Of a stretch of DNA of 43,806 nt, positions 4,037 through 28,767 are shown in pieces. A model generated the notes under the pieces. That model made no database searches, was not told the DNA's origin, and saw only the letters and a list, made by a program, of their open reading frames with translations. The DNA is from Chloroflexota bacterium (lineage in GTDB: Bacteria; Chloroflexota; Anaerolineae; Promineifilales; Promineifilaceae): the NCBI GenBank assembly GCA_022616275.1, contig JAKEFB010000279.1, positions 1 through 43,806 of the forward strand. The letters run 5' to 3'. Both the position numbers and the translations under genes were made by a program. How positions within the stretch are numbered: position 1 is the stretch's first letter; each line of letters opens with the position of its first letter.

Positions 4037-4101
4037 TAAGTGTCAAGTGTCAAGTGTCAAGTGCCAGGATTTGCCTGGCAAAGCTCTGACACATGACACG
4101 C
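4037..4101. repeat. Inverted short-tandem-repeat hairpin between sigma and anti-sigma genes
   Basis: On the plus strand AAGTGTC is repeated about three times and runs into TGCCAGG (4062-4068). A 5-base loop follows, then CCTGGCA (4074-4080), then TGACACATGACAC as the inverted counterpart of the tandem part. The result is a long imperfect hairpin. The minus-strand copies contain repeated TTGACA words, which mimic -35 boxes. It has the same plan (short tandem repeat, turn, inverted tandem repeat) as other cassettes in this window. Confidence 0.65.
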
Positions 4102-7305: not shown

Positions 7306-8400
7306 ATGCCTGATCCATTTTATTGCTGTAATCGTATCACCGATCCCCAGTATTTCGTCGGCCGCCAGGCAGAACTGGCCCGCATCTTCACCGCCCTGGA
7401 AACGGCCCACGCCGGCCAGCTCCAGAGCGTCTCCATTGTTGGGCCGCGCCGCACCGGCCGCTCCTCCCTGCTCTACCATCTCACCCAGAGCTATCCGCAG
7501 CGCCTGCAACAGCCGGAGCGTTACGTTTTTTGCTGCGTTGACCTGCTGAGCGGCCGCTATATGACCCGCCACGCCCTGCTGCAAGGGCTGCTGGCCGGCC
7601 TATGCCAGGCTTTACCGCCCTCCGCCCGCCGGCTTGAGGCTCAGTGGCAGGAAGCAGGACGGCAGCAGGATTTGACTCTAGACGCGTTCGAGGAGGCCAT
7701 CCGCCTGGCGGCCGGCCAGGAGGGCTTCTACCCGGTCCTTTGCCTGGACGAGTTTGAGCAATTGGTCAAATACCCCGAAGCCTTTCCCCGCCAGCTTTTC
7801 GACTCCTGGCGCAGCCTGATTAACGGCGGCCAGGCCGCCTTCGTCATTACCTCCACCCGGCCGCTCTACGAGCTGGCCGAGGAAGAAAAGGTGACGTCGC
7901 CATTCTTCAACATCTTCTCCGAGTTTATTCCCCTGGGGGAGTTGACCGAAGCCGAGGCCTACCGGCTGGTGGAGCGGGGCCGCCACTGCGACCGGCCGTT
8001 TAACGACGAAGACATCCAACGGGCCCTCAAGTGGGCCGGCCGCCACCCCCTGAAGCTGCAGCAGGCCGGCCGGGCCATTTACAACGCCAAGCAGCAGCCG
8101 GCCGCCAACTGGCGGCGCGTCCACCGCGCTTACCAGGCCACGCTCCGCCAGACCTTCGGCCGGCGCACCCGGCGCGAGCAGGCCGGCCGCTTCCTCCGCC
8201 ACCTGCCCGACCACGTGGGCCGGCTGGCCCTTTTCTGGAAAGGGGAAGCGGCCACCGATCCGCTCACCCGCCGCACAGTCGGCTGGGCTTTACTACTGCT
8301 CCTTGTAGTGATTTTTCTTCTCATGATGTTTTCACCAGGCTTCCGTGGCCTGGTGGCTACTCGCTTCCTACCCACGCCGCCTCTTACCCCCACACCCTGA
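7306..8400 (+). CDS. Membrane-anchored STAND/AAA-type ATPase with altered Walker A
   Basis: A 364-residue protein. The P-loop region SVSIVGPRRTGRSSLLYHL lies at about 41-59, but the position normally held by the Walker A lysine is Arg52 (GRSS instead of GKS/T). Walker B is VLCLDEFEQ (Asp148, Glu149), and a sensor-like TSTRP follows near 190. The opening YFVGRQAELARIF is the usual entry to STAND-type ATPase domains. A single hydrophobic helix (WALLLLLVVIFLLMMF, about 326-342) is near the C-terminus, so the ATPase would face the cytoplasm on a membrane anchor. The stop overlaps the next start (TGATG at 8398-8402), so the two proteins are made together and probably act as a complex. The Lys-to-Arg change suggests weak or no hydrolysis, with the partner being the active ATPase. 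Related ATPases often serve in defence or programmed death; here that is inference. Confidence 0.75.
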   Translation: MPDPFYCCNRITDPQYFVGRQAELARIFTALETAHAGQLQSVSIVGPRRTGRSSLLYHLTQSYPQRLQQPERYVFCCVDLLSGRYMTRHALLQGLLAGLCQALPPSARRLEAQWQEAGRQQDLTLDAFEEAIRLAAGQEGFYPVLCLDEFEQLVKYPEAFPRQLFDSWRSLINGGQAAFVITSTRPLYELAEEEKVTSPFFNIFSEFIPLGELTEAEAYRLVERGRHCDRPFNDEDIQRALKWAGRHPLKLQQAGRAIYNAKQQPAANWRRVHRAYQATLRQTFGRRTRREQAGRFLRHLPDHVGRLALFWKGEAATDPLTRRTVGWALLLLLVVIFLLMMFSPGFRGLVATRFLPTPPLTPTP

Positions 8401-10898
8401 TGGCTATCGAAGGACAAGGCACGACCCCCAATACCCTCCTTCACTTTCCCCGGGATCTGTCCCGCCTGCTGTACTGGCTTTACTTCAAACCATTTACCTT
8501 GCGCCGCTACGTCCAGGCCATTGATTCCCGCCTGAATGAGCGGCTGCTGCTGTGGGAAGCCGCTGACCGGCTGGCCGGCGCGCCCGCGCTACACCATCTG
8601 CACCGCCTGGTATTGGCTCTGTTAGTAGTAGGTCCATTGTCCGGCGCGTTGCTTTGGGGCCTGACCCTCCGGTTAACCCTCCTTCCCCTGCTGGGCGAGG
8701 CACTGGACTGGGTGATCTTGCTGGCTACTGCTGGCGGCTACAGCGCCGGCGCCCTGGCCAGCTACCTGCTGCACTGGCGCGTTCGCCGGGGCGATCTGGC
8801 CGGTTACCTGCTGGCGCTGCCGGCGGCCATCCTGGCTTGGCTGCTGCTGGCTATGGCGGGCGTCCCCTCAGACGTGGCGGTTGGCGTGGCGGTTGGCGTG
8901 GCGGGGGGCGTGGCGGGGGGCGTGGCGGGGGGCGTGGCGGGGGGCGTGGCGGGGGGCGTGGCGTTGGGCGTGGCGGTTGGCGTGGCGGGGGGCGTGGCGG
9001 TTGGCGTGGCGGTTGGCGTGGCGTTTGGCGTGGCGGTTGGCGTGGCGGTTGGCGTGGCGTTTGGCGTGGCGGTTGGCGTGGCGTTGGGCGTGGCGTTGGG
9101 CGTGGCGTTGGGCGTGGCGGTTGGCGTGGCGGTTGGCGTGGCGGTTGGCGTGGCGGTTGGCGTGGCGTTTGGCGTGGCGTTGGGCGTGGCGTTGGGCGTG
9201 GCCTATTTTCGCCTTTTTCCATTCTTTTGCCAACTGCCTTACCAATGGCTGCTGGCCCGCTCCGGGCGCGGCCGCCCGGGGGAGGCGCTGGCGACGCTGC
9301 CCCGCTCGCCCGTCTTTTGGGACGAGCTGGTCTGGCTGCCGCTGGCCGGGCTGGATGCCCACCTGGTCGCCGCCGCCCAGGCCGACCGGGCGGCGGCCGC
9401 CCGGGCCATCGGCCAGGTGGCCGCCTCTTTTCGCCAGGGCTGGGCGGCCCGCCGCGCCTTGTTGGAAATCACCGCCCGCGACCTGGAGCAGGCCAATAGC
9501 CTGGCCGGCATTGCCGGCGTGGCCGAGACGCTGGCCTGGCTGCCGCCCGACTTGCCGGCCGGGCTGGAAAACGCCCTGCCCGCCCTGCGCCAGGTCGCCG
9601 AGCGGGTCCGGGCTGCTGAGGAAAGCGAAGAAGACGCCAACCGTTTGGACCAACTGGAACGCGCCCAGGCCGAGGTAATCCAGTTGCAGCAGGCCCAGGC
9701 CTGGGCCGCCGGCCAGGCCGGGGCGCGCCTGGCCGCCGCCCTGCTCACCTGGCGGCGTCTCCTGGATCAGGCTCTGGCCGATTTGCGCCGCCGCTCGGCT
9801 GAATTGCCCGTGCCCAACTATTACGTCGTCGGCAACCCTCTGGCCGACAAGAGCCGGGTCTTTAAGGGCCGCCGCGATTTGTTCCTGATGTTGGAGCGGG
9901 AACTAGCTGCCCAGCCGGAAGCCCGCCCGACGCTGCTGCTCTATGGCCCGCGCCGCAGCGGCAAGACCTCCGTTCTCCGCCAGTTGCCCTCCCGCCTCGG
10001 CCCTGACTTTGTGCCGGTGGAAGTGGATTTACAATCGGCCATCACCGGCGAAAGCGCCGCCGGCCTCTTGGGCAGCCTGGCCCGCCAGGTCCAGAACAGC
10101 GCCCTCCACTCCCGCCGCCTGAAGCTCCCGCCCCTCTCCCGCGAGTGGCTGGCCGACGACCCCTATACCGCCTTTTTTGACTGGGCCGGGCAGCTCCCCC
10201 CTTTGCTGGACGGCCGACTCATTTTACTCAACCTGGACGAGTACGAACGGCTGGAAGAAATGATCGCCGCCGGCCGGCTGGACGAGCGTGTCTTCCACTG
10301 GCTGCGCGGCTTGATCCAGCACCATCCTCACCTGGTTATTCTCCTGGCCGGTTCGCACACGGCCGAAGAACTGCCGTCCCGCTGGGGCGACGCCCTGGTC
10401 AACGTTCGCCTGCTGCCCATCGGCCCACTGCAGCCAGGCGAAGCCCGCGAATTAATTACGGCACCCGTCCCCGATTTTCCCCTGCATTACGAACCGGAAG
10501 CCGTGGAAGCGATTCTGGCTGCCAGCGGCGGCCAGCCCTACCTGGTCCAGGCCATTTGCCGCGACCTGGTCAATCACGTCAACGAGAACCATCAACGCCA
10601 GGCCACCCTGGCCGACGTAACCACCGCCCTGAACACGACGTTGCAGACGACGGCCGCTTACTTCACCGAGTGGTGGACCAGCCGCGACACCGACGACGCC
10701 CAGCGGGCCGTTGCGCGCCTCCTGGCCCGCGCCCGGCTGGAGCCGCTGTCCGAAAGCGAGTTACTAGGGCAGGCCCAGGCCACCCCGGCCGCCCTGCGCG
10801 GTCTCCTCTGGCGCCAGGTGGTCGAAGAGGCCAACGGCGGCTACCGCCTGCGCGCCGGCCTGGCCGCCCGCTGGATCAACGAACGCGCTCCAGCCTGA
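8400..10898 (+). CDS. STAND NTPase with membrane domain containing 27 GVAx repeats
   Basis: An 832-residue protein starting at the ATG overlapping the previous TGA. The reading frame is open further upstream, but that part is shadow. Residues 1-55 are a helical region ([20 protein letters not shown]). Hydrophobic helices cover about 70-155. Residues 159-266 are 27 uninterrupted tetrapeptides VA[V/G/L/F]G, giving a Gly at every fourth position and an Ala between. Helical, linker-like residues follow to ~470. A complete P-loop ATPase comes next: Walker A GPRRSGKT at 516-523, Walker [10 protein letters not shown] with Asp613/Glu614, and [12 protein letters not shown] further on. The C-terminus looks like a winged helix ([26 protein letters not shown]). 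The Gly-every-fourth pattern suits tightly packed membrane helices, so a pore or membrane-disrupting effector switched by the ATPase is possible. Such repeats are known in other bacterial ATPases, but I know of no established function. Confidence 0.8.
8874..9197 (+). repeat. 27 x 12-bp coding tandem repeat (GTGGCGnnnGGC)
   Basis: Every unit is GTGGCG, one variable codon, GGC. The variable codon is only GTT, GGG, TTG or TTT, so it contains only G and T. The plus strand has no A at all across the 324 bp. Five successive GGG units create runs of six G. The array is in frame, and a 28th half unit (GTGGCC) ends it. Confidence 0.95.
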
Positions 10899-21280: not shown

Positions 21281-22807
21281 ATGATAAAACGCGCCATTCT
21301 TTCCGTACACGACAAAAACGGCCTGGTCTCCCTGGCCCAGGCCCTGGTGGAAATGGAGTGGGAAGTGGTAGCCAGCGGCGGCACGGCCCAGGCCCTGCGC
21401 GCGGCCGACCTGGCCGTGTTGGACGTGGCCGAAGTGACCGGCGCGCCGGAAATGCTCGGCGGCCGGGTCAAGACCCTCCATCCGGCCGTCCACGGCGGCA
21501 TCCTGGCTCGCGATACGGCCGAGGACCGGGCCGACCTGGCTGCCCAGGGCATCGCCCTCGTTGACCTGGTCGTCTGCAACCTCTACCCCTTCCAGGAAAC
21601 GGTCGCCAGGCCGGACGTCAGCCTGGCCGAGGCGGTCGAGCAAATTGACATCGGCGGCGTCACCCTGTTGCGGGCCGCCGCTAAGAACTTCGACCGCGTC
21701 ACCGTCTTGTGCGACCCGGCCGATTACGGCGTTGTGCTGGCCGAGCTGGGCCAGGCCGGTGGGGTCAGCAGTGATACTCGCCACCGGCTGGCCGTCAAAG
21801 CCTTTGCCCACACCGCCGCCTACGACGCCGCCATCGTCACCTGGTTCAACCGCGATACCTCCCTCCCCCCAACCCTCCACCTGGCCCTGGAGCGCGCCCA
21901 GGAGCTTCGCTACGGCGAAAACCCCCACCAGGCCGGCGCGCGCTACCGGGAAACAGGGGCCACCGGCTGGTGGGATTCCGTTGTCCAGCACTCCGGCATG
22001 GCCCTCAGCTACCTCAACCTCTACGACGCCGAGGCCGCCTGGCGGCTCGTCCATGACCTGGGGAGTGAGCCGGCGGCCGTCATCATCAAGCACGCCAACC
22101 CTTGCGGCGTCGCCGTCGCCGCCGATATTTCGGCCGCCTACCACCTGGCCTTCGAGTGCGACCCCAAGTCAGCCTTCGGCGGCATCGTCGCCCTCAACCG
22201 GCCGGTGAGCGAAGCGCTGGCCACCGAAATTGCCGCCAACCCCAAAGCCGACGTCCTCATCGCCCCCGCCTTCGACCCGGCCGCCCGTGAGCTGTTGGCC
22301 GCTAAACGGAAGAATATGCGCGTGTTGGAGGCTCAACCTCCCGGCCGGCCGGGCATGGTCTTCAGTCGGGTAGACGCCGGCTTCCTGGTCCAGCAGCCGG
22401 ATAGTATCAACCTGGACCGCTCCACCTGGCGCGTCGCCAGCCAGGCCCGGCCGAGCGAGGCCCAATGGGGCGACATCGAGCTGGCCTGGATTATCTGCGC
22501 CTATACCAAGTCCAACGCCATCGTCCTGGTCGCCAACGGCGTGGCCTGGGGTGTTGGCGCCGGCCAGCAAAGCCGGGTGGACGCCGGCGAGTTAGCCGCC
22601 AGGAAAGCGGCCGGGCGGGCGGCCGGCGGCGCCTGCGCCAGCGACGCCTTCTACCCCTTCCGCGACGGCATTGACGCCGCCGCGGCCGCCGGGGCCAGCG
22701 CCGTCATCCAGCCCGGCGGCTCCATCCGCGACGAAGAAATCATCCAGGCGGCCGACGAGCATGGCCTGGTCATGGTCTTCACCGGCGAGCGCCATTTCCG
22801 GCACTAA
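21281..22807 (+). CDS. purH: Bifunctional AICAR transformylase / IMP cyclohydrolase
   Basis: A 508-residue enzyme for the last two steps of IMP synthesis: formylation of AICAR and closure to IMP. The N-terminal MGS-like cyclohydrolase domain begins [22 protein letters not shown] with [17 protein letters not shown] and [10 protein letters not shown]. The C-terminal transformylase has [21 protein letters not shown] (catalytic Lys-His), [17 protein letters not shown] and the ending [30 protein letters not shown]. The ATG at 21281 matches the family start; the frame is open further upstream. No clear ribosome site is seen. Its stop lies exactly where the antisense toxin remnant breaks off (22808). 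Confidence 0.96.
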
Positions 22808-22957: not shown

Positions 22958-23255
22958 GAACTGGGCTTATTCTGGAAGGATACTGGTCTCGAAGTTCTGA
23001 AACAAGTTGCTCGCCGGCTATTATTTCGGCATCCAGCTCAGCTTGATTCTCATAATAATAGGAAAGTGCATCATGTATCTGAGCTAACGTGAGATGAGGG
23101 TGGGCTTCGATAATTTGATCAGGTGTCCAACCAAGGCGCTCATATTCAGTGGCAACTTGGGTCACTTTTATGCGAGTACCCGTAATGACCGCCTTACCGT
23201 CACATATGGCTGGGTTACGCTCAATATAACGGTGCTGCGTAGCTGTTTTCTCCAT
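22947..23255 (-). CDS. DUF433 antitoxin-like protein
   Basis: A 102-residue protein from the ATG at 23255 (MEKTATQHRYIERNPAICDG). DUF433 features: RNPAICDGKAVITGTRIKVTQVATEY, then LGWTPDQIIEAHPHLTLAQIHDALSYYYENQAELD. These form a winged-helix antitoxin usually paired with a DUF5615 PIN-like nuclease, as seen here. With the toxin truncated, the antitoxin is an orphan. It is transcribed against the purine genes, between purH and purL. Confidence 0.85.
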   Translation of the reverse strand: MEKTATQHRYIERNPAICDGKAVITGTRIKVTQVATEYERLGWTPDQIIEAHPHLTLAQIHDALSYYYENQAELDAEIIAGEQLVSELRDQYPSRISPVRGH

Positions 23256-23395
23256 ACCAAGAGTATAGCACAAATTTACCTATCCTTTCTTTACTTTCTG
23301 TGTTAAACTGGCGCAGTCTGCAACCCGGCCGTAGGGACAGACACGCGGAAGAGCAGCACCGTTACCAGGAACGACTTGACAAATGAGAAAGGCAA

Positions 23396-23428
23396 CGCAG
23401 GCGGGAAGCGTCCTTCCCTGTCCGCCTG
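23396..23428 (+). other. Two-tier stem-loop in the purL leader
   Basis: CAGGCG (23398-23403) pairs with CGCCTG (23423-23428). Inside, GGGAAG pairs with CTTCCC around the loop CGTC. It ends 21 bases before the ribosome site of purL, so it could affect translation. No known riboswitch was recognised. A TTGACA at 23375 has no matching -10. The rest of 23256-23460 shows nothing convincing. Confidence 0.4.
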
Positions 23429-23460
23429 TTAGAACTTGCCTGCCTTGCCGGAGAGTTATT

Positions 23461-26400
23461 ATGGAGCAGACCGAAACACAAACGATAGCGCCCGCCACCA
23501 CCGGGGAGCAAATTTATCGTATCGAGGTGGGGCCGGCCGCCGACCAGACAGACACCACCAACCACCCCCTCCTTCAAGCCGCCCATCAATTGGGCCTCAC
23601 CACCCTCACCCACTGCCACACCACCCGTCTCATCTTCCTCCAGGGCCACCTCACCCCAACCGAAGCCCACCGCCTGGCCCAGGAACTCCTGGCCGACCCC
23701 GTTACGGAGAGAGCGGAGATTGGAGATTGGAGATTCGCGAATCTCCAATCTCCAATCTCTAATCTCCAATCAGTTGAAGTTACCCTCCTTCCCGGCGTCA
23801 CCGACCCTCCGGCCGAAAACCTGGTCCGCGCCGCCCATCTGCTGGGCATGGCCGGCGTCCGGCGGGCGGCCACCGGGCAGCGCTACCTGCTGGCCGGCGA
23901 GCTGGACGAAGCCGGGCTGCACCGCCTGGCTACCGAGCTGCTGGCCAACCCTGTCATCCAGCGCTTTACCATCAATGAGCCGATTACCCCGCCCTTCTTC
24001 GCCTACCAGGAAGCCGACGGCCGGGTAGAAACTATCTCCCTGCGCGAAGCCGGGGACGAAGAGCTGCTGGCTATCAGCCGGGAGCGCCGGCTGGCCCTCA
24101 ACCTGGCCGAAATGCAGGCCATTCGCGACTATTACCGGGAGGAAGGGCGCGACCCTACCGACGTCGAGCTGGAGATGCTGGCCCAGACCTGGAGCGAGCA
24201 TTGTATCCACAAAACGTTCAGAGCGACCATTGAGTACACCGGCCCCGACGGCCGGACCGAAATCATCCCCGGCCTGCTCAAGACCACCATCCGCGCCGCC
24301 ACTGAAAAAGTCAACAAGCCCTGGGTCCGCTCCGCCTTCGTGGACAACGCCGGCATCGTCGCCTTCGACGACCACTTCGACCTGGCCTTCAAGGTCGAGA
24401 CCCACAACCACCCTTCGGCCCTGGAGCCGTTCGGCGGGGCCAACACCGGCGTTGGCGGCGTCGTCCGCGACGTACTAGGCGTCAGCGCCCGGCCGATTGC
24501 CAACACCGACGTCCTTTGCTTCGGCCCGCCCGACCCGCCCCCCGACGCCGTGCCGGCCGGCACGCTCCACCCCCGCCGCGTGGCCAGCGGCGTCGTCCAT
24601 GGCATCGAAGATTACGGCAACAAAATGGGCATCCCCACCGTCAATGGGGCCATCCTCTACCACCCCGGTTACACCGCCAATCCGCTGGTCTACTGCGGCT
24701 GCCTGGGCCTGTTGCCGCGCGGCGCCCACCGCACCCAGGCCCAGCCCGGCGACCTCATCGTGGCTATTGGCGGCCGCACCGGCCGGGACGGGCTGCGGGG
24801 GGCCACCTTTTCCAGCATGGAAATGGATACGACCACCGGCGAGATTGCCGGCACGGCCGTCCAAATTGGCCACCCCATCCAGGAAAAACAGGTGCTGGAA
24901 GTCGTCCTGCGCGCCCGCGACGAGCGGCTCTACAACGCCATCACCGATTGCGGCGCGGGTGGTTTCTCCTCGGCCGTCGGCGAAATGGGGGAAAAACTGG
25001 GTGCTCACGTCCAACTGCAAAACGCCCCCCTCAAATACCCCGGCCTGCGGCCGTGGGAAATCTGGCTCAGCGAGGCCCAGGAACGGATGATCCTGGCCGT
25101 GCCCCCTGACAACTGGCCCCGCTTGCAGCAACTCTGCACCGGCCAGGACGTCGAAGCCATCGTCCTTGGCCACTTCGAGTCCACCGGCCGGCTGCGCCTC
25201 TTCTACGGCGACCGCCTCGCCGGCGACCTGTCCATGCCCTTCCTCCACAACGGCCTCCCTCCCCGCCATCTGAAGGCGGTCTGGGGACAAGGAGAGGGGG
25301 AGACAAGGAGAGGGGGAGACAAGGAGAGGGGGAGACCAGGGGACATCCCCACACCTCCTCAGTCGTCAGTCCTTGGAGTTGGCGAGGCCAACTCTGCTCA
25401 TTCCTCACTACTGGCTTTGCTGGCTCACCCTAACATCTGCAGCAAGGAAGAAATCATCCGCCGCTACGACCACGAAGTCCAGGGCGGCGCGGCCGTCAAA
25501 CCCCTCGTCGGCGCCGCCAACCACGGCCCCAGCGATGCCACGGTGCTCGTTCCACTAGACACGTTATTAGAGATGAGAGATTGGAGACTTCGTCCTGAGA
25601 CTCAGTCCGAAGGATTAGAGATTAACCAATCTCCAATCTCTAATCTCCAATCTCCAAAAGGCGTTGCCCTCGCCGCCGGCCTCTGCCCCGCTTACGGCGA
25701 ACTCGACCCCTACGCCATGGCCTGGGCGGCCGTAGATGAAGCCATGCGCAACGCCGTCGCCGTGGGCGCCGACCCCGATCAGGTGGCCCTGCTGGACAAC
25801 TTCTGCTGGGGCAACCCCAACCTGCCAAACCGGCTGGGGGCGCTGGTCCGCTGCGCCCAGGGCTGCTACGACGCGGCCGTCGCCTACAATGCCCCCTTCA
25901 TCTCCGGCAAGGACAGCCTCAACAACGAATACACCGGGGCCGACGGCCAGAAACAGGCCATCCCCGGCACCCTGCTCATCTCCGCCCTGGCCATCGTCCC
26001 CCAGGTTGATCGAACCGTAACAATGGACCTCAAGCAGCCAGATAATATCCTTTATATCATCGGCGATACACGAGACGAACCAGGTGGAAACCTTTACAAC
26101 CCACAATCCAAAATCCAGACGAATGCTTCGCATTCGCATCTAAAATCCAAACTCCAAACTCCTCCCCAGCCGGTAGCCAACCCTTTGCACCGTCTTCGGG
26201 CACTGCACCGAGCCATCGCTGGCGGGCTGGTCCAGGCCTGCCACGACTGCTCCGAGGGTGGCCTGGCCGTGGCCGTGGCGGAGATGTGTCTGGCCGGCCG
26301 GCTGGGCGCCGAAGTCGAGCTGGCCGCCGTCCCAGGTGACCCGGCCGGCCTACCGGATGAGGTCCTCCTCTTCTCCGAATCACTGACCCGTTTCATCGTC

Positions 26401-27603
26401 GAGGTCCGGCCGGCAGACGCCGCCGCCTTTGAACAAACCCTGGCCGACGTCCCCCACGGCCGCTTCGGCCGGGTCACCGGCAGCGGCGAACTCCTCGTCC
26501 ACGGCCACACCGCCCCCATTATCCAGCTCACCGTCGCCGACCTGGAAACAGCCTGGCGCGGCCATCTTGGAGAAGGTGACAAGGAGACAAGGAGACAAGG
26601 AGACAAGGAGAGGGGAAGACAAGGGAACAAGGAAACTCCCCCTCTCCCCCTCTCCCCCTCTCCCCCTCTTCACAAACGCGTCCTCATCCTCCACGCCAAG
26701 GGCAGCAACCGCGACCGGGAAGCGGCCCTGGCCTGCCAACTGGCCGGCGGCGACTCCGAAATCGTCCACGTCAACCAACTGCTGGCCGGCGAGCGCCGCC
26801 TGGCCGACTACCATATGCTCGTCATCCCTGGTGGCTTCTCCTACGGCGACGACCTGGGGGCCGGCGTCCTCTGGGCGCTCGACCTGCGCCACCGCCTCGG
26901 CCGGGACATCCACGATTTCGTCACCAGCGGCCGCCCTGTCCTGGGCATCTGCAACGGCTTCCAGGCCCTCGTCAAGGCTGGCCTGTTGCCAGGCAGGGGA
27001 GACAAGGAGACAAGGAGACAAGGAGACAAGGAGACAAGGAGACAAGGAGACTGCTCCCCCTCTCTCCCCCTCTCCTCCTCAGCCCTCAGTCCTCAGTCCT
27101 CTATCACTTTAACTTATAACGCCTCGGCCCACTTTGAGTGCCGGTGGGTCTACCTCCAGCCTAATCCGAACAGCCCCTGTCTCTTCACCCGGGGGCTGGA
27201 CGAACCGATCTACTGCCCCGTCGCCCACGGGGAAGGCCGCCTGGCCGTCCACGACGAAGCCACCCTGGCCACCCTGCAAAGCCAAAACCTCATCGCCCTC
27301 TCCTACACCGACCCAATCTCCAATCTCCAATCTCCAATCCTTCGGACTGAGCACTTCGGCAGCCTCAGTGCAAGTTCTCAGGACGAAGTCTCCAATTTCC
27401 AATTACCAATTACCAATTACCCCTATAACCCCAACGGCTCGATATTAAATATCGCCGGCCTCTGCAACCCGGCCGGCAACGTCCTCGGCCTCATGCCCCA
27501 CCCCGAAGACCACGTCTTCCCCTGGCAGCACCCCCGCTGGCATCGCGGCGAACAGGGGATGGTCGGGCTGCGGCTGTTTGAAAATGGCATCAGGCAGGCC
27601 TGA
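23461..27603 (+). CDS. purL: Phosphoribosylformylglycinamidine synthase, PurS-PurL-PurQ fusion with seven repeat-derived insertions
   Basis: A 1380-residue enzyme that converts FGAR, glutamine and ATP to FGAM. The start is ATG 23461, with GGAGAG five bases upstream. Residues 1-~180 look like two PurS-like units (EQIYRIEVGPAAD and VEVTLLPGVTDPPAENLVRAAHLLG). The PurL part runs to about 1035 (LAQTWSEHCIHKTF, KVETHNHPSALEPFGGANTGVGG, DCGAGGFSSAVGEMG, CHDCSEGGLAVAVAEMC). PurQ occupies the rest: RVLILHAKGSNRDREAA, GGFSYGDDLGAG, GICNGFQALVKAG with the Cys nucleophile, and MPHPEDHVFPWQHP with His and Glu. Seven low-complexity segments interrupt it, at about residues 85-103, 608-655, 702-734, 877-902, 1038-1071, 1179-1214 and 1284-1321. 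They are encoded by the short repeats common between genes here. All keep the reading frame and lie between conserved blocks, so the enzyme is probably functional. Confidence 0.95.
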   Translation: MEQTETQTIAPATTGEQIYRIEVGPAADQTDTTNHPLLQAAHQLGLTTLTHCHTTRLIFLQGHLTPTEAHRLAQELLADPVTERAEIGDWRFANLQSPISNLQSVEVTLLPGVTDPPAENLVRAAHLLGMAGVRRAATGQRYLLAGELDEAGLHRLATELLANPVIQRFTINEPITPPFFAYQEADGRVETISLREAGDEELLAISRERRLALNLAEMQAIRDYYREEGRDPTDVELEMLAQTWSEHCIHKTFRATIEYTGPDGRTEIIPGLLKTTIRAATEKVNKPWVRSAFVDNAGIVAFDDHFDLAFKVETHNHPSALEPFGGANTGVGGVVRDVLGVSARPIANTDVLCFGPPDPPPDAVPAGTLHPRRVASGVVHGIEDYGNKMGIPTVNGAILYHPGYTANPLVYCGCLGLLPRGAHRTQAQPGDLIVAIGGRTGRDGLRGATFSSMEMDTTTGEIAGTAVQIGHPIQEKQVLEVVLRARDERLYNAITDCGAGGFSSAVGEMGEKLGAHVQLQNAPLKYPGLRPWEIWLSEAQERMILAVPPDNWPRLQQLCTGQDVEAIVLGHFESTGRLRLFYGDRLAGDLSMPFLHNGLPPRHLKAVWGQGEGETRRGGDKERGRPGDIPTPPQSSVLGVGEANSAHSSLLALLAHPNICSKEEIIRRYDHEVQGGAAVKPLVGAANHGPSDATVLVPLDTLLEMRDWRLRPETQSEGLEINQSPISNLQSPKGVALAAGLCPAYGELDPYAMAWAAVDEAMRNAVAVGADPDQVALLDNFCWGNPNLPNRLGALVRCAQGCYDAAVAYNAPFISGKDSLNNEYTGADGQKQAIPGTLLISALAIVPQVDRTVTMDLKQPDNILYIIGDTRDEPGGNLYNPQSKIQTNASHSHLKSKLQTPPQPVANPLHRLRALHRAIAGGLVQACHDCSEGGLAVAVAEMCLAGRLGAEVELAAVPGDPAGLPDEVLLFSESLTRFIVEVRPADAAAFEQTLADVPHGRFGRVTGSGELLVHGHTAPIIQLTVADLETAWRGHLGEGDKETRRQGDKERGRQGNKETPPLPLSPSPPLHKRVLILHAKGSNRDREAALACQLAGGDSEIVHVNQLLAGERRLADYHMLVIPGGFSYGDDLGAGVLWALDLRHRLGRDIHDFVTSGRPVLGICNGFQALVKAGLLPGRGDKETRRQGDKETRRQGDCSPSLPLSSSALSPQSSITLTYNASAHFECRWVYLQPNPNSPCLFTRGLDEPIYCPVAHGEGRLAVHDEATLATLQSQNLIALSYTDPISNLQSPILRTEHFGSLSASSQDEVSNFQLPITNYPYNPNGSILNIAGLCNPAGNVLGLMPHPEDHVFPWQHPRWHRGEQGMVGLRLFENGIRQA
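23713..23771 (+). repeat. purL insertion 1: GATTGGA palindrome
   Basis: A perfect 44-bp palindrome with no loop (arms 23716-23737 and 23738-23759; centre TTCG-CGAA), made of GATTGGA units. A further partial copy follows. It encodes EIGDWRFANLQSPISNLQS between the two PurS-like units. Confidence 0.9.
25283..25425 (+). repeat. purL insertion 2: GGGGGAGACAAGGAGA tandem repeat and hairpin
   Basis: About three copies of a 16-bp GA-rich unit, then CAGTCGTCAGTCC words and a hairpin GAGTTGGC-GAG-GCCAACTC near 25377-25395. It encodes GEGETRRGGDKERGRPGD and continues to about LLALLAHP before PurL homology resumes at NICSKEEII. Confidence 0.8.
25564..25661 (+). repeat. purL insertion 3: AGAGATTGGAGA arms around a CTTCGTCCTGAG core
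   Basis: GAGATGAGAGATTGGAGA on the left and CCAATCTCCAATCTCTAATC on the right are inverted around a core, CTTCGTCCTGAG to CTCAGTCCGAAGG. It encodes EMRDWRLRPETQSEGLEINQ and then SPISNLQSPKG. The core is the inverse of the ends of the core in insertion 7. Confidence 0.8.
26092..26166 (+). repeat. purL insertion 4: CAATCCAAAATCCA repeat with CGAATGC hairpin
   Basis: AATCCAAAATCCAGA, a hairpin CGAATGC-TTC-GCATTCG, then TAAAATCCAAACTCCAAACT. It encodes NPQSKIQTNASHSHLKSKLQ and a few more residues, just after the conserved GDTRDEPGGNLY. Confidence 0.75.
26573..26673 (+). repeat. purL insertion 5: GACAAGGAGA / CTCCCCCT repeat between PurL and PurQ
   Basis: Four copies of GACAAGGAGA-like units, then about four TCTCCCCC units as a loose inverted counterpart. 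It encodes EGDKETRRQGDKERGRQGNK and PPLPLSPSPPL and forms the linker between the synthase and glutaminase parts. Confidence 0.8.
26995..27108 (+). repeat. purL insertion 6: GACAAGGAGACAAGGAG repeat inside PurQ
   Basis: Six GACAAGGA copies, then CTCCCCCTCTCTCC, then CAGCCCTCAGTCCTCAGTCC. The last words are the same as in the spacer at 16503-16541. It encodes RGDKETRRQGDKETRRQGD and SPSLPLSSSALSPQSS, soon after the catalytic Cys loop. Confidence 0.8.
27310..27424 (+). repeat. purL insertion 7: CAATCTC repeat with CCTTCGGACTGAG core
   Basis: CCAATCTCCAATCTCCAATC, a core running CCTTCGGACTGAG to CTCAGGACGAAG with a GCACTTCGGCAGCCTCAGTG centre, then CAATTACCAATTACCAATTA. It encodes PISNLQSPILRTEHFGSLSA and onward to the conserved NPNGS of PurQ. 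Confidence 0.8.
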
Positions 27604-27639
27604 GCGCCGCCTGGCAAAGAAAGAGCGGCAAAAAAGCGT

Positions 27640-28596
27640 ATGTTGACTCAGGAAGAACTGTTACAGGCCATCCCCCAGGCCCTCGACTCGGTCGAGCTGC
27701 CCGGCTGGGGTGAAAAAATAGAAGGCAAGGTCCGCGACAGTTACCAGCGCGACGGCCGGCGCGTGCTCGTCACCACCGACCGCGTCTCGGCCTTTGACCG
27801 GGTGTTGGGCCTCATCCCCTACAAGGGCCAGGTCCTCAACCAGTTGAGCGCCTGGTGGTTCGAGCAAACGGCCGGCATCGCCGGCAACCATCTTATCAGT
27901 GTGCCCGACCCCAACGTGACCATCGCCCATGAGGCCCGATCGCTGCCAGTCGAGGTCATCGTGCGCGGCTACATCACCGGCGTCACCAAGACCTCGCTCT
28001 GGTATCTGTACGAGCAGGGCGACCGCCGGCCGTACGGCATTCCCCTGCCCGATGGCCTGCTCAAGAACGATCCCCTCCCCCGGCCGATCATCACCCCGAC
28101 CACCAAGGCTGAAAAAGGCGGCCACGACGAGCGGCTGACGCGGGAAGAGATTTTAGAGCGCGGCCTGGTCCCGGCCGCTCTGTGGGACGAAGTCGAGCAG
28201 GCCGCCCTGGCCGTCTTCGCCCGCGGCCAGGAAGTGGCCCGCCAGGCCGGCCTTATCCTGGTAGACACCAAGTACGAGTTTGGCCTGGTAGACGGCCGGC
28301 TGGTGCTCATTGACGAAGTCCACACCCCCGACTCCAGCCGCTACTGGGTGGCCGAAAGCTACCGGCCGGGCGGCGAGGAGCCGGAAAACTTCGACAAGGA
28401 ATTTCTACGCAAGTGGTTCGCCGCCCAGGGCTACCGGGGCGACGGCCCCCCGCCTACCATGCCGGCCGGCTTCGTGGCCCAGGTTGCCGCCCGCTACATC
28501 GCCGCCTACGAGCGCCTCACCGGCCGGCCTTTCCTCCCCGCCCCCTACCCGGCCGCCTCCCGCATCCTCACCAACTTGGCCCAGTATGAAATTTGA
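27640..28596 (+). CDS. purC: SAICAR synthase
   Basis: A 318-residue enzyme joining CAIR and aspartate with ATP to give SAICAR. Signatures: [88 protein letters not shown], and [13 protein letters not shown]. It has the longer form (about 300 residues) seen in yeast and many bacteria. It follows purL by 36 bp. The TGA stop (28594-28596) lies inside the first unit of the repeat cassette TTTGACGC (28592), so the cassette has set the end of this gene. Confidence 0.95.
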
Positions 28597-28767
28597 CGCA
28601 AAGACGCAAAGGCGCAAAGTTTTATGAAATGACAGATCTTCGCTTGTTAGACCTGAAATTGGCCCTCGTCATCAACTTCGGCGCGCGTTACGTCAAACAC
28701 GGCATCCACCGCGTCGTCAATGGCCTATAAATAAAAATCCTTTGCGTCTTTGCGTCTTTGCGTCAAA
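28592..28767. mobile_element. Miniature cassette: 28-bp inverted short-repeat arms around a GxxExxY remnant
   Basis: The left arm, TTTGACGCAAAGACGCAAAG then GCGCAAAG (28592-28619), and the right arm, CTTTGCGTCTTTGCGTC then TTTGCGTCAAA (28740-28767), are inverted copies differing at one base. Between them lies a 33-residue C-terminal fragment of a GxxExxY protein. The whole unit is 176 bp and looks like a MITE-type derivative. Confidence 0.75.
28629..28730 (+). pseudogene. C-terminal remnant of a GxxExxY (PDDEXK_3) protein
   Basis: An ATG-initiated 33-codon frame: MTDLRLLDLKLALVINFGAR then YVKHGIHRVVNGL. GxxExxY proteins end with LLINFNV-x3-KDGI-RVVN, which this matches. The nuclease-like core and N-terminus are missing. 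It lies exactly inside the cassette arms. Confidence 0.7.

Follow-up and report, generated by a model that had tools for sequence, protein, structure and literature searches.

In-frame tandem repeats with 7- and 8-nt units in the linkers of a fused PurL enzyme from a Chloroflexota bacterium and its relatives

We analysed positions 1 to 43,806 of contig JAKEFB010000279.1 (hereafter the window, 43,806 nucleotides (nt) in length) from a Chloroflexota bacterium of the Promineifilaceae (assembly GCA_022616275.1, our genome G000), and found that its purL gene carries seven in-frame repeat segments, named S1 to S7. Beyond what a preliminary description of this DNA had reported, the same linkers of PurL hold other words in other genomes. 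We observed that repeat periods 7 and 8 dominate, that the words are lineage-specific, that arrays cluster in length-tolerant loops and linkers, and that related genomes differ by in-frame steps. We propose, with a probability of roughly 0.7, that the segments are local copies of 7/8-nt tandem repeats that occur genome-wide, produced by slippage, fold-back and inter-locus copying, and that in-frame copies were kept in permissive linkers.

The purL gene is one open frame encoding 1380 amino acids (aa), so the segments keep the frame, as previously described. Perfect arrays of 7- or 8-nt units were found in S1, S5, S6 and S7. The 7-nt array of S3 is imperfect, and S2 contains one of 16 nt (2 x 8). 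Words in the segments include GGAGATT and its complement, GACAAGGA, CTCCCCCT, TCCTCAG and CCAATTA (Table 1). Array scans found none in S4, where AAAATCC-type words were seen by eye round a small hairpin. The predicted linker peptides include NLQSPISNLQS and GDKETRRQGDKE. We aligned 91 PurL protein rows, dropping matches of fewer than 900 residues (including the fragments from relatives G004 and G023); three genomes occur twice among the rows, all of them array-free. S1 to S7 fall in poorly conserved stretches between conserved blocks, and residue-level conservation, which had been raised as the outcome that would speak against the repeat interpretation, was absent from this alignment. Linkers exceeded the median of the relatives at S2 (68 aa vs 47, 2 of 90 relatives as long), S3 (51 vs 28.5, 1 of 90), S4 (48 vs 37, 1 of 90), S5 (51 vs 42, 10 of 89), S6 (56 vs 29.5, 1 of 86) and S7 (64 vs 36, 1 of 84). 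The S1 linker (31 aa vs 29.5, 35 of 80 as long) is not longer than in relatives, indicating that the repeat fills it without lengthening it.

Table 1. Coordinates of purL, its seven repeat segments and other repeat arrays in the window.
Feature	Position	Strand	Composition and context
purL	23461..27603	+	Fused PurS-like/PurL/PurQ phosphoribosylformylglycinamidine synthase; open frame with PurS, PurL and PurQ model matches along its length
S1	23709..23772	+	(GGAGATT)n - loop - (AATCTCC)n hairpin; about aa 83-104, within the N-terminal PurS-like part
S2	25285..25400	+	(GACAAGGAGAGGGGGA)n, CAGTCCT words and a small hairpin; linker behind the first AIRS_C domain
S3	25562..25660	+	GGAGATT/CCAATCT heptads flanking a CTTCGTCCTGAG...CTCAGTCCGAAG core; linker flanked by conserved blocks (aa 698 and 734)
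S4	26095..26165	+	AAAATCC-type words flanking a GAATGC-TTC-GCATTC hairpin; loop at aa 880-899; weakest segment
S5	26570..26675	+	(GACAAGGA)n then (CTCCCCCT)n; PurL/PurQ junction
S6	26995..27105	+	(GGAGACAA)n, (CTCCCCCTCT)n, (TCCTCAG)n; loop within the PurQ/GATase part
S7	27310..27425	+	(CCAATCT)n, CTTCGGACTGAG...CTCAGGACGAAG core, (CCAATTA)n; loop within the PurQ/GATase part
Octad GACGCAAA arrays	28592..28767		Large hairpin; 3' end of purC (SAICAR synthetase) and behind it
AAGTGTC heptad array	4038..4063		Outside the called genes of the window
AACCATC heptad array	15480..15528		Gene boundary

Perfect arrays (at least 20 nt and 2.5 units) were counted in a 1.44-Mb sample of G000, which is non-random, having been picked partly for repeats or repeat-like matches, and whose genes were called with a home-made caller. 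Period 7 accounted for 83 arrays in the sample and period 8 for 50; the other periods from 4 to 15 together gave 23. A second-order Markov control gave none at any period from 4 to 15, and the 83 and 50 arrays against 0 place the repeats among long-unit simple sequence repeats (7 nt, within a unit range of 5-11 nt, above chance). Furthermore, codon-shuffled purL genes contained no array of period 7 or 8, compared to 63 and 11 in the real purL genes; chance is thus excluded as the source of the purL arrays. With the open frame and both controls, the seven segments of the preliminary description are real, S4 being the weakest.

When imperfect arrays were included, the sample held 215 arrays of period 7 or 8, of which 143 lie outside genes, 40 partly overlap a gene and 32 are in genes. 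They represent 82 words, 44 of them occurring once, and the commonest is AATCTCC (the GGAGATT word, 29 arrays). Density per 10 kb was 7.8 in tandem, 7.7 in convergent and 3.9 in divergent gaps. An inverted partner was present within 80 nt of 54 of the 143 intergenic arrays and 12 of the 40 partly overlapping ones, compared to 12 of 200 control places. That the purL segments are made of the repeats found between genes holds for six of them, which have 13 to 45 similar places in the sample (S3, 45; S1, 44; S7, 35; S6, 16; S2, 13; S5, 13), and only weakly for S4, which has 1. One word is common to S1, S3 and S7, so that their similar places overlap. Those of S1 comprise 29 outside genes, 13 partly overlapping a gene and 2 in genes. 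Read by eye, the halves of the S3 core recur in S7 as reverse complements.

The same sites are filled in relatives. Arrays were present in 22 of the 91 PurL rows, 74 arrays in total, at eight sites (aa 83-107, 263-269, 610-651, 696-734, 880-899, 1035-1073, 1177-1215 and 1283-1321 in the numbering of the G000 protein) that together make up less than one fifth of PurL. The sites were drawn round the arrays found, which makes the confinement of all arrays to them a matter of definition. What is independent is their coincidence with variable linkers: in 54 array-free full-length PurL proteins, the seven most length-variable intervals were, from the top, S5, S3, S6, S1b, S7, S2 and S1. The linker peptides differ from one relative to another, as shown by WSMVNGQWPMVNG in L097, NRQSSIVNRQSSI in L012, SSEQLAVSSDQS in L069 and TEYRAQSTEY in L018 (G and L numbers are our handles for genomes and loci). 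On a FastTree tree of conserved columns, there are at least 10 changes between carrying and lacking arrays, indicating that the array state was often gained or lost. The S5 site is the PurL-PurQ join, and in relatives with two genes it corresponds to the intergenic gap, which is itself array-rich. The purL match of G059 (L097) has three stops (2 TGA, 1 TAG) in the S5 join and therefore probably represents two genes. One stop is also present in each of the stretches aligned for L037 and L062.

We modelled aa 560-1380 with AlphaFold2 from 22 rows, which gave a mean predicted local distance difference test (pLDDT) score of 68, a predicted template modelling score of 0.51 and 14 stretches with pLDDT below 50. 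Six of these overlap S2 to S7, one each (S2, 592-643; S3, 715-728; S4, 880-895; S5, 1038-1069; S6, 1180-1211; S7, 1290-1316), and the other eight lie elsewhere. For the AlphaFold2 alignments, 21 of 24 relatives were kept, leaving out L037 and L062 (stop in the stretch) and L055. These predictions suggest that the repeat-encoded low-complexity peptides are probably disordered.

None of the 59 relatives listed belongs to the genus of G000, and those with names are mostly bins of Anaerolineae and other Chloroflexota; G025 has the nearest full-length PurL, with 71% identity over the best stretch and 66% over the whole. Steps within a genus were read from three pairs of relatives, G001/G023, G033/G018 and G004/G025. 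G001 and G023 (90% identity over the shared part of purL) differ at S1 (42 nt, corresponding to six heptads), S2 (6 nt) and S3 (48 nt); at S3, G001 possesses the second half of a hairpin made of its own heptad. This 48-nt difference is the one nearly clean filled/empty pair, located inside an array and with ambiguous ends. The G023 fragment also has a 1-nt gap and a frame change near aa 784-799, outside the sites and near the contig end. Between G033 and G018 (82%), we observed differences of 39 nt at S1, 3 and 3 nt at S2, 9 and 18 nt at S3, 21 nt at S5 and 45 nt at S7, as well as 13 and 4 nt on opposite sides at S6, for a net change of 9. G004 and G025 have differing words at S1, with gaps of 17 and 4 and a net change of 21. 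Such steps would be the expected trace of slippage and fold-back copying. Together with the alignment lengths, they show that the segments vary among relatives, even within a genus, which the preliminary description had proposed to check.

Two words, GGAGATT x3 and GTCAATC x3, were searched for genome-wide, and both were amplified in genomes whose purL carries them. GGAGATT x3 gave 37 matches in G000 (31 distinct places once overlaps were merged) and was present in 13 of the 59 relatives, with 134 matches in G023, 67 in G025, 60 in G015, 39 in G035 and 24 in G001, and none in G014, G018 and G033. CAATCTC arrays occur in the purL of G000, G025 and G035 (L074). GTCAATC x3 was present in 6 of the 59 relatives, among them G033 (52 matches, 5 within its purL), G014 (10) and G001 (6), and gave 0 matches in G000. 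The GTCAATC peptide occurs at several sites in the purL of G033 (L012) and at one site in that of G001 (L015). G018 (L013) carries a variant GCCAATC array, yet has no perfect GTCAATC triple.

In the mechanism that we favour, DNA polymerase slippage would create and lengthen the 7/8-nt units, the nascent end would fold back and copy an inverted second arm, and occasional inter-locus copying would spread a word until each lineage favours words of its own. Selection would purge other copies and leave in-frame ones in permissive linkers, and PurL, as a long fused enzyme with eight permissive sites, would collect arrays. An older idea, cited in the excerpted texts of PMC4692102 and PMC4679880, is that 7 nt corresponds to the polymerase contact and favours slippage. 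Neither 7 nor 8 is divisible by 3, so an array encodes one cycling peptide in all three frames, and a stop-free word is therefore safe in any frame. Any net change in length would still have to be divisible by 3, as the steps between genomes of one genus are. The word is stop-free in the coding direction in 28 of the 32 in-gene arrays of G000. Words stop-free on both strands account for 23 of the 32 in-gene and 79 of the 143 intergenic arrays; this gap is modest, and we set aside a stop-free bias of in-gene words. The repeats are probably near neutral for the enzyme. In-frame arrays in purL and in other genes agree with the earlier suggestion that coding DNA tolerates a repeat process; the further suggestion that such a process uses coding DNA found no support.

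Within the sample, purL is the extreme, with 8 of the 32 in-gene arrays, while each of the other 1018 called genes has at most 2. A search for the repeats in other genes of the genome, proposed by the preliminary description, was thus positive; of 22 host genes, the 10 named ones include TrmD, three PMT_2 membrane proteins and an AddB-like protein, and 8 of the 24 in-gene arrays outside purL lie within the last 76 nt of the gene. The TrmD gene of G000 (tRNA (guanine-1)-methyltransferase, L134 11185-11979) carries a GACAAGGA/CTCCCCCT composite mid-gene. Among 15 purL genes or fragments of the same family, our own left out, we counted 43 arrays in 53.8 kb, and 5 of the 15 had none. Other long genes were counted at their best loci, in relatives whose kinship ranges from family to class level: carB had 1 array in 70 kb (22 loci), ileS 2 in 89 kb (26 loci) and dnaE 9 in 114 kb (30 loci), 8 of the 9 in two genes. 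These counts make purL an outlier, yet not a unique one, given dnaE. The dnaE-family genes of G005 and G014 (L264 3768-4181 and L259 2195-2559) have four period-7/8 arrays each, making DNA polymerase III alpha a second enzyme with repeat-filled stretches. G057, from another family, gave eight matches to the PurL query, most of them to linker peptides, with several lying in long open frames, and may be another repeat-rich case.

Array density at 80 loci of relatives depended on how open reading frames (ORFs) were cut. When arrays were assigned by majority overlap, we counted 57 in 289.7 kb of purL/purQ coding DNA (1.97 per 10 kb), 24 in 586 kb of other ORFs of at least 450 nt (0.41 per 10 kb), 5 in 7.2 kb of gap between separate purL and purQ genes, and 11 in the remaining 82 kb (1.34 per 10 kb). 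When arrays had to lie wholly inside, the other ORFs had 12 in 569 kb and the rest 24 in 99 kb (2.42 per 10 kb), the latter being close to the density of whole purL genes; here the purL span includes the purL-purQ gap where the genes are separate, which the majority-overlap count splits off. DNA outside long ORFs thus carries 1.3 to 2.4 arrays per 10 kb by cut, and in the upper case, with all 35 non-purL arrays put into the 82 kb of non-ORF DNA, 4.3 per 10 kb.

Several observations weigh against the slippage-and-tolerance account proposed here. The linkers of relatives hold 57 arrays in about 35.4 kb, or 16 per 10 kb, which makes them 4 to 12 times denser, depending on the cut, than nearby non-ORF DNA. 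In the G000 sample, the linkers have 8 arrays in 0.79 kb vs 183 in 281 kb of non-coding DNA, about fifteen times denser, in a gene picked for its repeats. Plain tolerance predicts a linker density no higher than the intergenic one, and this excess therefore argues against it. The 61 loci without purL arrays have a lower density everywhere, so part of the contrast lies between genomes. The excess may come from slower loss of frame-bound arrays, the crude ORF cut, the weighting towards repeat-rich genomes, or directed copying. Furthermore, 69 of the 91 PurL rows are array-free; S4, which holds an array site in relatives, ranks only twelfth in variability; and the variable intervals at aa 954-970, 1011-1028 and 179-186 have no array. 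Word and gene also mismatch in places, as G001 and G023 have their 24 and 134 GGAGATT matches and a purL with other words, and none of the 10 GTCAATC matches of G014 is in its purL row (L069). An inverted partner accompanies only 5 of the 32 in-gene arrays, and predicted RNA folding was no better than that of shuffled sequences for S2 (z -0.4), S5 (z -0.8) and S6 (z +0.4). The model of aa 1-706 was poor (mean pLDDT 62, low in conserved parts too), leaving S1 undecided. Finally, we infer slippage and fold-back from the anatomy of the repeats, and the inter-locus copying step and its dispersal machinery are putative.

The linker excess also raises a more far-reaching view, which we regard as tentative: that PurL linkers are a preferred store of heptad arrays, beyond tolerance, and that the growth of short repeats is a recurrent source of new peptides across the group. 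Candidate causes of such storage would be that frame-bound arrays are harder to delete, that copying is directed from linker to linker, or that unit number acts as a switch of purine synthesis.

It is unlikely that the arrays are kept for a function, whether as frame-shifting contingency tracts that switch purine synthesis, as mRNA hairpins or as useful linkers. Such a role would agree with the higher array content of linkers compared to non-ORF DNA and of purL compared to carB, ileS and dnaE, and a one-unit change would shift the frame. The strong predicted folding of S1 (z -8.1), S4 (z -6.2), S3 (z -4.5) and S7 (z -3.0) relative to shuffles also fits, as does word sharing within the purL of G000, where 4 of 10 element pairs share a word with 0.42 expected (p 0.005, with the S1 word corrected by hand; 2 of 10, p 0.053, before correction, when the scan had merged the S1 arms). 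However, most PurL rows lack arrays, neither words nor lengths are conserved, array sites track length tolerance, and arrays occur in other genes too, including near gene ends. A structured-RNA role was rejected, as the region 23000-28700 had no Rfam match at gathering level.

Equally improbable, in our estimate, are small palindromic mobile elements moved by a transposase, such as Rickettsia palindromic elements (RPEs), repetitive extragenic palindromes (REPs) with their associated RAYT transposases, or miniature inverted-repeat transposable elements, that landed in purL and were kept where in frame. The S1 hairpin is dispersed, the core of S3 and S7 recurs at L137 1576-1659 (S3, 87% over 85 nt), and the words are genome-wide. 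Word sharing is no commoner among elements less than 5 kb apart (4 of 126 pairs) than among distant ones (676 of 16,884), which suggests that spread is not local in general and led us to reject local chromosomal spreading. G000 also has six Y1_Tnp matches. In contrast, none of the arrays lies within 800 nt of these six places; the 98 kb round them contains 8 arrays, the nearest about 900 nt from a Y1_Tnp match, and one of the six places is 385 nt from a contig end. A RAYT/Y1 transposase was therefore rejected as the mover. The 215 arrays vary in word and copy number and share no single unit, their arms are arrays without fixed termini, and three of the seven segments fold no better than shuffles. 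The preliminary description had spoken of a mobile repeat process; in the sense of a defined transposable element, this is not supported, given the diversity of words and the lack of a link to Y1-type transposases.

An assembly or binning artefact is highly improbable: G000 is a repeat-containing draft of 8,530,591 bases in 309 contigs (completeness 98.25, contamination 5.5), but the segments are only 64-116 nt long, the frame is open throughout, and the same sites are filled in 21 further rows from other assemblies.

We file the segments under the heptameric kind of repeat, the new element being that the same linkers of one enzyme have been repeatedly filled by lineage-specific 7/8-nt words. 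Cyanobacterial short tandemly repeated repetitive (STRR) sequences and the heptad stem of a tRNA-Leu intron are further heptad cases, and heptanucleotides of Calothrix have passing mention in the literature. Among the openly licensed titles listed, at most 20 per search, we found no report of heptads in Anaerolineae genes or in purL. The excerpted text of PMC4692102 describes dispersed heptameric repeats in Xanthomonas (GGGAATC) and Nostoc/Anabaena (GGGGA[C/T]T), which resemble ours in having 7-nt tandem units with one word amplified genome-wide per lineage. They lie mostly between aligned ORFs and are scarcer between divergent ORFs and in coding DNA, a context that the G000 arrays share, being mostly intergenic and half as rich in divergent gaps as in others. 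Unlike them, the arrays described here comprise many words per genome, 8-nt units and inverted partners, and refill the linkers of one enzyme across many genomes, for which the excerpts of PMC4692102 give no counterpart in Xanthomonas or Nostoc. TAACTGA heptamers, reported from intergenic DNA of Beggiatoaceae and Cyanobacteria in the part of PMC4679880 considered, are likewise direct repeats scattered among phyla without an evident exchange mechanism. TAACTGA contains stops and, in one genome, lies mostly just upstream of start codons according to the same excerpts; in contrast, most words described here have no stop on one strand or both, and they also occur in linkers.

The preliminary description had named RPEs as the closest kind; composed of 7/8-nt tandem arrays that in part form hairpins, the segments are nearer to the Xanthomonas and Nostoc heptamers. 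RPEs, as portrayed in passages of PMC3767692 and PMC3733652, are likewise dispersed palindromic repeats in frame within probably functional genes, and purL has in-frame insertions in a gene whose product we take, by inference, to be a working enzyme. However, RPEs are 100-150 bp repeats in numbered families, and that description sets apart our 64-116 nt segments, which are variable 7/8-nt word arrays with other words in each genome and of which S2, S5 and S6 do not form a palindrome folding better than shuffles. RPEs were thus rejected as the kind on make-up, with no RPE sequence in an alignment. Intragenic GTAG/CGTC REPs are alike in being small repeats within ORFs, many of them in DNA synthesis or repair genes, and recB of two Xanthomonas carries different REPs at about the same site (PMC3733652, in part). 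REPs are described as 20-40 bp palindromes with a tetranucleotide tag and are discussed with RAYT transposases, neither of which was established here: by eye, S1 has neither GTAG nor CGTC, and the S3/S7 core, whose ends are undefined, has CGTC on one strand. Mitochondria of Nematomorpha also have inverted repeats within working enzyme genes, whose arms encode conserved residues in the excerpted account of PMC6649704, whereas only poorly conserved linkers are affected here. The resemblance to RPEs and REPs is one of effect, as repeats become peptide in each case, and the make-up differs.

These arrays amount to a natural experiment, with replicates, on the conversion of non-coding repeat DNA into protein: one enzyme offers eight permissive sites, the words vary among 22 PurL rows, and pairs from one genus reveal single steps. 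They open to test the tolerance of metabolic-enzyme linkers for arbitrary peptide and the spread of 7/8-nt repeats. They also bear on automatic annotation, which can miss or misname genes with such inserts. The purL product matches the PurS, FGAR-AT linker, AIRS, AIRS_C and GATase_5 models, and falls below the curated cut-offs of the PurL models NF002290 (529 vs 648 bits) and TIGR01736 (524 vs 525.75) and of the PurQ models NF002252 (223 vs 298) and TIGR01737 (170 vs 178), the repeat inserts being the likely cause.

A further in-frame ATG of purL lies at 23383, and the gene is flanked by purH (21281-22807) and purC (27640-28596). Of 76 PurL candidates in G000, 10 were scored, and these included no second full-length match. 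Plasmid carriage of purL was rejected, with no megablast match, and a bare count of the 23-nt GGAGATT pattern gave 6 stretches in a viral collection. The octad hairpin at the end of purC (28 nt, 96% complementary, with a 120-nt interior) is an example of the same process next door to purL. Elsewhere in the window, a 12-nt unit is repeated about 27 times at 8873-9202, inside an ORF (8400-10898) resembling an AAA/STAND-like ATPase, for which every match was below cut-off. It encodes a repeat peptide and, unlike the 7/8-nt arrays, preserves the frame by its period.

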